This document shows, one piece after another, positions 33,591 through 36,773 of a stretch of 64,000 bases of DNA. Numbering within the stretch: the first letter of the stretch is position 1; every line of letters begins with the position of its first letter. This DNA is from Egicoccus halophilus. Its GTDB lineage: Bacteria; Actinomycetota; Nitriliruptoria; Nitriliruptorales; Nitriliruptoraceae. Position numbers and translations under genes: made by a program. The notes under the pieces were generated by a model, which worked only from the letters and a program-made list of their open reading frames with translations, was not told the DNA's origin and ran no database searches. The DNA is taken from positions 1,364,001-1,428,000 of the forward strand of contig NZ_CP036250.1 in NCBI RefSeq assembly GCF_004300825.1, read 5' to 3'.

Positions 33591-34550
33591 TCAGCGTCCC
33601 GGGTCGAGCCACACCTTGCCGACCGTCCGCCGTTCACGCAGGTCGCGGTGCGCCTGCGCCGCGTCGGAGAGCGCGTAGGTCCCGCCGACGACCGGCCGCA
33701 GGTCACCGGCCGCGGTCAGGGAGAACAGTTCCCGCATCGGCTCGGCCAACAGCCGGTCGGGGTCACGCATCGCGTGTGCCAGCCAGAACCCGATCACGCC
33801 CTGCGACCGGCTCATCAGCGCGGCTGGCGCGACCGGGGTCGGCGGCCGACGCGACGCCATCCCGTAGAACACCAGCCGCCCGAAGGGCGCGAGCGCGGCC
33901 AGGCTCGCGTCGGTCGTCGGGCCGCCGACCATCTCCAGCACGACGTCCACCCGCCGGCCGCCGTTGGCGTCCCGCAGGGCGGACGCGAGGTCGTCGACGC
34001 CGGCGTCCACCGCCACGTCCGCCCCCAGCTCACGCGCCAGCTCGCGCTTCTCCTCGCTGGAGGCGACGGCCACGATCCGGCCGGCGCCCCACCGTCGTGC
34101 CAGCTGCACCGCCAGGGTTCCCACCCCGCCGGCGGCGGCGTGCACGACCACCGACTCGCCCGCCTGGAGCCGGGCCGAGGTCCGCAGCAGGTGCCAGGCG
34201 GTCGTGCCCTGAAGCACCAGCGCCAGTGCCTGTCCGTCGTCGACCTCGTCGGGGACCGCGAAGGTCAGGGCCTCAGCCGCGACGGCTCGCTCGGCGTAGC
34301 CGCCGCCGGCGAGCAGCGCGACGACCCGACGGCCGTCGGGCGTGGTGCCCACCGCCTCGGCGCCCGGGACCAGCGGCAGCGACGACGGTGCCAGATAGGA
34401 GTTCTCGGCCTGATGGGTGTCGGCGTAGTTGCAGCCGGCGGCCGACACCTCGAGCAGCACCTCGCCGTCGCCGGCGGTGGGTTCCGCCTCGTCGTCGACG
34501 AACTGCAGGACCTCGGGGCCTCCGAACTCGGTGATACGGATCGCGCGCAC
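33591..34550 (-). CDS. Zinc-independent quinone oxidoreductase (MDR family)
   Basis: This 319-residue medium-chain dehydrogenase/reductase resembles NADPH:quinone reductases. The N-terminal GroES-like part contains AAGCNYADTHQ and the Rossmann part has VHAAAGGVGTLAVQLARRWGA. No structural-zinc Cys cluster is present, as in the QOR class. The GTG at 34550 has GGAGGAACC directly upstream. It follows ybaK after 33 bases on the minus strand and is a distant paralogue of the gene at 35805. Confidence 0.88.
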   Translation of the reverse strand: MRAIRITEFGGPEVLQFVDDEAEPTAGDGEVLLEVSAAGCNYADTHQAENSYLAPSSLPLVPGAEAVGTTPDGRRVVALLAGGGYAERAVAAEALTFAVPDEVDDGQALALVLQGTTAWHLLRTSARLQAGESVVVHAAAGGVGTLAVQLARRWGAGRIVAVASSEEKRELARELGADVAVDAGVDDLASALRDANGGRRVDVVLEMVGGPTTDASLAALAPFGRLVFYGMASRRPPTPVAPAALMSRSQGVIGFWLAHAMRDPDRLLAEPMRELFSLTAAGDLRPVVGGTYALSDAAQAHRDLRERRTVGKVWLDPGR

Positions 34551-34583: not shown

Positions 34584-35060
34584 TCAGCCGGCCCGGGTCA
34601 CGTCGACGACGGCGGCATCGACGGCCGCGACCAGGTCGGCGGGGGACAGCAGCAGCGACACGCCGTGCGCGCCACCCCCGACGGCGATGCGCTCGGCAGC
34701 GGCGGCCTCGGCGTCGACGACCACCGGCAGGGGTCGCACCGTCCCCAGCGGGGTGATCGTCCCGCGCTCGTAGCCGGTCGCCGCGCGGGCCTCGTCGGCG
34801 TCGGGCAACGACAGCCGGGAGACGCCGAGGTGGGCCCGCAGCTTGGGCCAGTCGAGCTGCCGTGAGCCGGGCACGACCACCAGCAGGTGCTCGCCCTCGG
34901 CACGCCGCACGACCAGCGTCTTGCACAGCCGGTCGACCGGCACGCCGAGGCGGTCGGCGGCCTCCTCGAGGCTGCCGGCCCGTTCGATGACCCGGACCTC
35001 GTGGTCGATGCCGAGTTCCTCGGCCGCCTCCACGGCCCGGGTGCGCGGTGGCGTGGTCAC
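34584..35060 (-). CDS. YbaK/EbsC-family aminoacyl-tRNA deacylase
   Basis: This 158-residue editing-domain protein has CKTLVVRR, the conserved Lys-containing motif of the YbaK/ProX group, and the late GGGAHGVSLLLSPADL motif. Members hydrolyse mischarged tRNA such as Cys-tRNA(Pro) or Ala-tRNA(Pro). The exact substrate is not readable. The GTG start overlaps the stop of the ion-channel gene, so translation is probably coupled. Confidence 0.87.
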   Translation of the reverse strand: MTTPPRTRAVEAAEELGIDHEVRVIERAGSLEEAADRLGVPVDRLCKTLVVRRAEGEHLLVVVPGSRQLDWPKLRAHLGVSRLSLPDADEARAATGYERGTITPLGTVRPLPVVVDAEAAAAERIAVGGGAHGVSLLLSPADLVAAVDAAVVDVTRAG

Positions 35061-35788
35061 GGGTCGTCTCCTTCCTCCTCGAGGGTGGCGCGCTCCTGGC
35101 GGGACTCGACGAAGAACGCGCCCAACGTTCCCGCCAGGGACGCGAACACGATGATCGCGTACACGGTCAGGACCAGGCTCAGCAGCCGGCCGGCCAACGT
35201 CACCGGCGTGTGCACGAGGTTCGAGGCGATCGCGAGGTTGGCCGACCAGTACAGCGCATCACCGAGCGAGGCGACGGCTCCGTCGCGGCCGCGCTCGAGC
35301 ACGTACAGCAGCTGCCCACCGCCCAGCGCCACGATCCCGGTCGTGACCGCGAGGAACTGCAGCCGGCCGGCCGCCAGCCCGCGCGCCGTCCCCACGGCGC
35401 GGTAGGACGAACCGACCACCCGGGCGGCCGGGAGCACCCGCACCACCCGCAGCGCCCGGGCGATGCGCAGCACCCGCAGGACCGGCAGCACCAGGAACAA
35501 CAGCGAGGGCCACCGACGGCGCAGGAACCGGCCGGGGTGCCCCGACACGGCCAGCTTCACCACGAACTCGACCACGAACACGATCCAGATCACGTTGCCG
35601 GCCGTGGCCAGTACCGGACGCTGCTCGCCGGGGGCCACCAGTTCGTAGGCGACCAGTGCGGCCCACACGACCGCGAGGACGGCCATGGGCACGTCCAGGC
35701 GGCGCTCGAGCACCGCGGCCAGCCGCTCCCGCGGCGAGAACTCGTCGTCCGGGTCCGGATCGAGGGTGGAAGCGGCGTCGTCGTTCAC
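35057..35788 (-). CDS. Voltage-sensor ion-channel-like protein with atypical filter
   Basis: This 243-residue protein has the S1-S4 sensor layout. S4 is arginine-rich (RVLRIARALRVVRVLPAARVV, Arg every third residue). A pore-helix region (ALYWSANLAIASNLV) and a final S6-like helix follow. Potassium channels carry T-V-G-Y-G at the filter, but the aligned stretch here is I-A-S-N-L-V before HTPVTLAGR, which is otherwise conserved. It may be a non-selective or anion-type channel, or non-conducting. The GTG at 35788 begins a minus-strand cluster with ybaK and the quinone oxidoreductase. Confidence 0.82.
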   Translation of the reverse strand: MNDDAASTLDPDPDDEFSPRERLAAVLERRLDVPMAVLAVVWAALVAYELVAPGEQRPVLATAGNVIWIVFVVEFVVKLAVSGHPGRFLRRRWPSLLFLVLPVLRVLRIARALRVVRVLPAARVVGSSYRAVGTARGLAAGRLQFLAVTTGIVALGGGQLLYVLERGRDGAVASLGDALYWSANLAIASNLVHTPVTLAGRLLSLVLTVYAIIVFASLAGTLGAFFVESRQERATLEEEGDDP

Positions 35789-35804: not shown

Positions 35805-36773
35805 TCACGGCTGCAGCAGCAGCTTGCCGGCGGTCTGCCCGGACTCGAGGTCCCGATGGGCCTGCGCCACCTCGTCGAGGGCGTGGCGTGCGTGCACGTG
35901 CACCTCGAGTTGCTCCTGCGAGACCAGCTCGAACAGGGCGTTGGCCCGCCACTCGAGCGCGTCCGACGTCGCGACGTAGTCGTGCAGCGACGGACGCGTG
36001 AGGTACAGCGACCCCTTGGCGTTGAGCACCTGCGGGTCGAGCGGTTCGACCTTGCCCGACGACGCGCCGTAGAGGACGAGCATGCCGCGCGGGTGCAGGG
36101 CGTCGAGCGAGGCGGCGAACGTGTCGCGCCCCACCGAGTCGTAGGCCACGTCGACGCCCTGACCGTCGGTGTGCTCCCGCACCGCGGCGACCAGGTCGAC
36201 GTCGCGATACCGGATCACCTCGTCGGCACCCAGCCGGCGGACCTCCGCCTCCTTGTCGTCGGTGGACGTGCAGGCCAGTACGCGTGCGCCGCGCCGCTTG
36301 GCCAGCTGCACCAACAGGCGACCGACCCCACCGGCCGCGGCGTACACCAGCGCCGTGTCGTCGCTGCCCAGCTTGTAGGTGGAACTGGTCAGGTAGTGGG
36401 CGGTGAGGCCCTGCAGCATCAGCGCGGCGGCCAGATCCGGCTCGACCCCCTCGGGGACCAGCACGGTGCGATCGGCGGCGACACTCGTCAGCTGCGCGTA
36501 CGAGCCGAGCTGGTCGGCCCAGGCCACCCGGTCGCCCTCACGTCGATGCTCGACGCCCTCGCCGACGGCGCGAACGACGCCGGCGCCCTCGAGCCCCAGG
36601 CCGCTGGGGAGCTCGAGCGGGTAGGCACCGCTGCGCTGGTAGGTGTCGACGAAGTTGACGCCCGCCGCGAGCACCTCGACGACGAGCTCGCCGGGGCCCG
36701 GACGCGGCTCGTCGGCATCCTCGACCCGCAGTACCTCGGGCCCACCGTTCTCGTGGAATCGCACGGCACGCAC
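35805..36773 (-). CDS. qor: NADPH:quinone reductase
   Basis: This 322-residue MDR enzyme closely follows the bacterial Qor pattern: [54 protein letters not shown] and [16 protein letters not shown]. The last of these is the NADPH-binding loop. It reduces quinones by single- or two-electron transfer. The GTG at 36773 has GGAG upstream. It lies 16 bases before the channel gene and may lead the operon. A 137-base gap separates it from the divergent mgsA. Confidence 0.92.

Follow-up and report, generated by a model that had tools for sequence, protein, structure and literature searches.

A family of voltage-sensor channel-like proteins in Nitriliruptoria with a replaced potassium-channel filter

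What does a voltage-gated channel protein do once its filter, the element that defines the potassium channel family and is best conserved in it, has been replaced? The question is raised by a reading frame in the window studied here, a whole stretch of 64,000 nucleotides from Egicoccus halophilus. A sequence-only reading had described positions 35057-35788 as encoding a voltage-sensor channel-like protein. Coordinates and strand were borne out, and the product is a six-segment voltage-gated-channel-like protein scoring 33.7 bits against Pfam PF00520 (Ion_trans), for which the curated cut-off is 25. Its match to Ion_trans_2 is weak (11.4 against 22.5), and the Pfam search found no further domain within its 243 amino acids. 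The protein and its segments, with conservation counted over its orthologous family (family A, 23 aligned rows), are as follows.

35057..35788, minus strand: channel-like protein of family A, 243 aa, GTG start at 35788
35537..35605, minus strand: S2, residues 62-84; F71, E74 and K78 invariant in 23/23 family A rows
35420..35476, minus strand: S4, residues 105-123; arginines 105, 108, 111, 114, 117 and 123
35366..35419, minus strand: S4-S5 linker, residues 124-141; mean pairwise identity 0.87, the most conserved segment of family A
35291..35365, minus strand: S5, residues 142-166; helix 135-165 in the AF2 model
35231..35257, minus strand: pore helix, residues 178-186; helix 175-185 in the AF2 model; N184 in 23/23 rows
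35204..35230, minus strand: filter position, residues 187-195, IASNLVHTP for the TVGYG region, placed by KcsA alignments
35099..35203, minus strand: S6, residues 196-230, beginning VTLAGR as in potassium channels

The pore of the window protein reads DALYWSANLAIASNLVHTPVTLAGR, with IASNLV starting at residue 187 and HTPVTLAGR at residue 193, so that AIASNLV-H occupies the place of TTVGYGD. Alignment with the KcsA pore (E=2.5e-6 with the window protein, 1.8e-9 with the family profile) matches the flanks well and sets AIASNLVH, shorter by one residue, opposite the KcsA filter; what we take to be the position of KcsA E71 is an invariant N in family A. The filter is therefore replaced within an otherwise potassium-channel-like pore, as the sequence-only reading had proposed. 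That reading had named two ways in which it might fail, a canonical filter elsewhere in the protein or a sequencing error in the pore. No other GYG occurs in the 243 residues, and since all 23 aligned family members lack GYG (a TxGYG-type filter is found in 0/23 rows), the change is due neither to chance nor to a sequencing error. Other known filter types were also looked for. BacNav channels carry a TLExW-type filter, and none was found after the pore helix of the window protein, where the sequence reads SANLAIASNLVHTP; T-[IV]-G, as in the CNG/NaK-type T-[IV]-G-[DE], does not occur at the filter of any of the 23 rows. What the family does have is a pore loop of a single length in all 23 rows, invariant N184, P195, G200 and R201, and a filter pattern of [AGSV]-[IVL]-[AST]-[SAG]-[NTS]-[LIMV]-[VI]. 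The residue preceding P195 is acidic (E or D) in 20 of the 23 rows and T in the window protein; a glycine is present in the filter of four rows and absent from that of the window protein.

Structure prediction gave a further view of this pore. In a profile comparison, canonical 6TM channels were matched from before S1 to beyond S6 (probability 99.7, E 7e-26). An AF2 model built from nine sequences (the window protein and eight close relatives) reached a pLDDT of 54.8 and was set aside; a second one used 29 sequences, of which 20 came from viral contigs and are related to canonical channels, and its pLDDT was 76.4. The second model has the S5-pore helix-loop-S6 arrangement (helices 135-165, 175-185 for the pore helix and 198-240 for S6), and many KcsA entries can be superposed on its residues 136-236, at 2.2-2.5 A over ~100 residues and with Z about 10. 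Because the alignment held canonical channels, this superposition is partly built in and the loop conformation is not to be trusted. Whole-chain matches were to KCNQ, Kv2, Kv4 and the bacterial cyclic-nucleotide regulated channel 3beh, but the rmsd exceeded 11 A, which means that sensor and pore are placed differently from those channels; prediction is poor in the S4 region, where residues 106-129 fall below pLDDT 50. The KcsA-like pore, with 30-34% identity to KcsA over about 100 residues of structural alignment, is what speaks for potassium-selective conduction through an unusual filter. We regard this as highly improbable: the window filter has none of the glycine, tyrosine or threonine of TVGYG, and family A has no fixed filter sequence.

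In the sensor half, the regular spacing of S4 arginines noted in the sequence-only reading is present, basic residues recurring in steps of three; R105, R108, R114, R117 and R123 are invariant in family A, and R111 is nearly so. F71 and E74 of S2, which we take from Kv channels to form the charge-transfer centre, are likewise invariant. Voltage sensors are expected to carry an acid in S3, and family A has no acidic residue at the usual place (WPSLLFLVLP).

We searched 150 related genomes, 51 of which had matches at E<=1e-10. Family A consists of 23 orthologous sequences including the window protein, the other 22 at 65-83% identity, and its gene is found in 23 of the 66 genomes of the class (window included). 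Ion_trans matched all 23 members at E<=0.01; in a search at the DNA level, the member in genome G002 scored 21.9 for Ion_trans, under the cut-off. Among 396 genomes sampled from the phylum, matches at the level of family A (E below 1e-90) occurred in 13, all within the class. One genome per species was scanned with a pattern that detects close relatives only and is silent on wider absence; this yielded eight relatives, seven in Nitriliruptoraceae MAGs and one in a contig of a Proteobacteria MAG. The last (L038, JAHWKC010000187.1) belongs to family A and comes from a contig of low coverage, and its Proteobacteria label may be a binning error. No family A relatives were found by the method in viral contigs or plasmids. 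Two soda-lake metagenome papers connected with Nitriliruptor give no more than a hint of habitat.

Could the gene simply be decaying and heading for loss? Some copies are. One in genome G062 (L134), beyond the 23 genomes counted above, is damaged and lacks S2-S5, and an extra fragment in G024 (L137) shares its contig with an intact copy; both are family A copies in decay. The frame of L023 shifts after residue 216 (another member, L022, ends at a contig edge). Against decay as the general explanation stand whole-gene omega values of 0.13-0.21 across three groups of closely related sequences and the presence of copies in 23/66 genomes, some at only 65% identity, and we give it hardly any credence.

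The wider set of relatives, 98 distinct sequences, falls into four main filter types: A (as in A-I-A-S-N-L-V); B, [AT]-[IV]-[TSA]-G-[EQ] followed mostly by P ('ATITGEP'); C (TTVGSELYP, TTVSSELYP, TTIGSEYWP); and K, the canonical TVGYG. Thirteen short rows, KcsA among them, were dropped before any tree was built. The careful tree, of 81 rows, excluded the filter columns and the long-branch rows L042, L051, L061, L125 and L130. Family A forms one clade in it (100/99), as does family B (100/99), and the two together with an odd row, L081, form another (98/95); canonical K lies on one side of a branch (100/97), apart from A and B. Since the filter columns were left out, the grouping of A and B is independent of the filter sequence. 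The position of C relative to A+B has a support of only 36/15.

The 'ATITGEP' family thus identified in the present analysis by sequence comparison is sister to family A (L024-L030, L080, L083, L084, L087, L090, L094 and other loci, with filter ATITGEP/Q). Both lack GYG and in neither is the filter specially conserved; family B differs in having a glycine in 22/22 rows, then mostly E or Q, and a loop of variable length after the glycine, whereas the loop of family A is fixed. Counted by genome, A occurs in 23 and B in 11 of 66 and none has both (p=0.005 if genomes are independent); counted by genus, they occur in 14 and 10 of 35, with two shared (p=0.13). Such mutual exclusion as a sign of the same job is a hint only. 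Type C (L046, L086, L089, L092 and 13 other loci) comprises 6TM proteins with a well conserved filter lacking GYG, which resembles the CNG type and may be non-selective. Single oddities also occur. L081 (G410), a lone relative of family A, carries another odd filter in its loop, TVVAMQGDPVPETAPGR; L044 (G109), a Kv-like 6TM protein, has AVTPIDFGLKPVT at the filter place; and L039 (G101), a BacNav-like protein for which a TLESW-type filter would be expected, has TLENLPENVDM there. No description of these filters was found in the open-licence PMC literature, in which filters are possibly printed in figures alone.

Constraint on the filter was compared between the types. Rows L053 and L115 were dropped from C and L042 from K for the constraint counts, and L022 and L023 also from A for the residue-class and rate analyses. 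Within the core of K, conservation peaks at the filter (identity 0.81 vs 0.37; 99th percentile of windows), and in C it ranks high (0.84 vs 0.71; 91st percentile). In B it stands at 0.43 vs 0.50 (25th percentile), and in A at 0.51 vs 0.72, the 6th percentile of 9-column windows. Model rates for filter and core are 0.40/0.89 in K, 0.43/0.68 in C, 1.01/0.75 in B and 0.74/0.58 in A, where 74% of windows are slower than the filter, the same direction as identity, but milder. The A filter is also nearer to its core when residues are grouped by class (0.85 vs 0.88; 25th percentile) and stands at the 15th percentile by BLOSUM. Of twelve segments, the filter has the highest omega both in the genus of the window (0.53) and in L006/L009/L017 (0.34); in L007/L011/L012/L014, where the filter is unchanged, it is 0. 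We read this as the loss of the potassium filter in family A with retention of a loop of set length and character. Because the filter has gone from a whole set of orthologues and the segment no longer stands out by its conservation, selective potassium conduction is unlikely, as had been suggested from the window alone, and the family probably has a job different from that of ordinary potassium channels.

Two readings of that job come first, and sequence alone does not tell them apart. The one we favour, if tentatively and as falling somewhat short of probable, is a voltage-responsive tetrameric pore without potassium selectivity. The scaffold is a four-helix voltage sensor joined to a potassium-channel-type pore, the filter of which is replaced by a fixed-length loop of small and branched residues; the assembly is probably a homotetramer. 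Depolarisation of the membrane would move S4, the highly conserved S4-S5 linker would relay this motion to S6, and the opened pore would pass cations with little or no selectivity for potassium, most likely serving as a voltage-triggered leak or relief pathway. A continuing need for an organised pore would account for the fixed loop length and for the retention of N184, P195 and the GR of S6. The low filter identity is odd for a conducting segment, and the T before P195 in the window protein, the lack of a filter glycine and of an S3 acid, and the poor S4 model also count against this reading.

The main rival is a non-conducting voltage sensor, in which the pore scaffold would keep the tetramer assembled while S4 motion would be relayed either to the cytoplasmic ends or to a partner. 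Constraint is lost at the filter, the lowest segment at 0.51, while S1 (0.83), S3 (0.78), the S4-S5 linker (0.87) and the pore helix (0.78) are conserved, and the contrast in rates with canonical channels points the same way. Yet the loop retains its length and residue classes, and the loss of constraint is moderate by the rate model, so that we hold this possible but somewhat doubtful. A broader version, that A and B are both voltage-sensing pseudo-channels, receptors of membrane potential without ion flow that keep the whole pore and use the S4-S5 linker and S6 as mechanical readout, seems to us rather unlikely.

The gene neighbourhood in the window consists of the following.

35805..36773, minus strand: zinc-type (quinone-oxidoreductase-like) dehydrogenase (PF00107/PF08240), upstream, 16 bases before the channel gene
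34584..35060, minus strand: YbaK-like tRNA_edit protein (PF04073, 114.8 bits), downstream
33591-34550, minus strand: further dehydrogenase, after the tRNA_edit gene

The sequence-only reading had the channel translationally coupled to a YbaK tRNA deacylase. The overlap is real, the TGA stop of the channel and the GTG start of the next gene sharing GTGA, and the tRNA_edit domain is present; the protein scores 106.1 vs a cut-off of 153.25 in the NCBI equivalog model for YbaK/EbsC Cys-tRNA(Pro) deacylase, so 'YbaK-like' is the safer name. A ybaK-like gene lies downstream in only seven of the 23 family A loci (four in the window's genus, plus L010, L013 and L020); at the remaining 16, none was found within flanks of about 1.5 kb, less at contig ends. 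This indicates no shared function. The dehydrogenase lies upstream in eight loci, window included. The window's gene order recurs in three congeners (L002-L004) and in L020. Both ybaK and the upstream dehydrogenase are present at L010 and L013, only the dehydrogenase at L016, and 15 of the 23 loci (L001-L023) have none of these neighbours within the same flanks. With the order kept in so few loci, the translational overlap is a local feature. Conserved neighbours were rejected as a functional clue: outside dehydrogenase-channel-ybaK, only shadow ORFs of the channel recurred widely. An acyl-CoA-synthetase-like gene recurs near the channel in one small clade, as judged by eye, and a promoter/terminator scan gave nothing beyond chance. 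The lack of a conserved neighbour, together with that of an extra domain, weighs against the non-conducting sensor.

A partner could instead be encoded elsewhere, family A acting as a silent or modulatory subunit of a canonical voltage-gated potassium channel of the same cell. The window genome does have a canonical 6TM TVGYG channel (L047/L139; G000:C1:3055368-3056126) and other Ion_trans_2 matches. A silent subunit should travel with such a channel, and 15 of the 23 family A genomes, some of them incomplete, have no match to it at E<=1e-12; they include the 98% complete G002 and G003. In one further genome, G015, the match falls on the family A gene itself. An obligate 6TM TVGYG partner is therefore disfavoured, and identity between the window protein and the aligned canonical channels is just 18-28%; we judge the subunit role improbable. 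About 36 kb from the canonical channel lies a fragment (G000:C1:3092519-3092641) 85% identical to its first 41 residues.

Whether family A is a non-selective pore, as we favour, or is silent, the relatives offer a natural series, TVGYG -> TVGSE -> TITGE -> ASNLV, built on a shared scaffold and voltage sensor, and hence material to ask what conduction and selection demand of a filter. Should family A prove silent, a voltage sensor and a whole pore domain can persist for signalling alone.

Among known systems, the canonical 6TM bacterial Kv channels (PF00520, TVGYG) share with family A the S1-S6 layout, the S4 arginines, the ALWW pore helix and the PVTxxGR start of S6. They have TVGYG, and have it as their most conserved segment, whereas family A has neither, and lacks the S3 acid. 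KcsA, a pore only, has TTVGYGD where family A has a non-GYG filter one residue shorter. NaKTs of Tsukamurella paurometabola is a 2TM channel with a proline-rich LPMGNGPLSP filter, and has been shown to conduct cations non-selectively and to bind Ca2+ (PMC5052707). It and family A are both actinobacterial relatives of potassium channels with a non-canonical filter, and NaKTs has no voltage sensor; it shows that non-selective conduction is possible for an actinobacterial potassium-type pore whose filter is unusual (PMC5052707). The CNG and NaK filters, TIGETPPP and TVGDGN, are altered potassium-type filters with non-selective conduction (PMC5052707, PMC9822992). Both retain T-[IV]-G, which family A does not, and family C, with TTVGSELYP, comes nearer to them.
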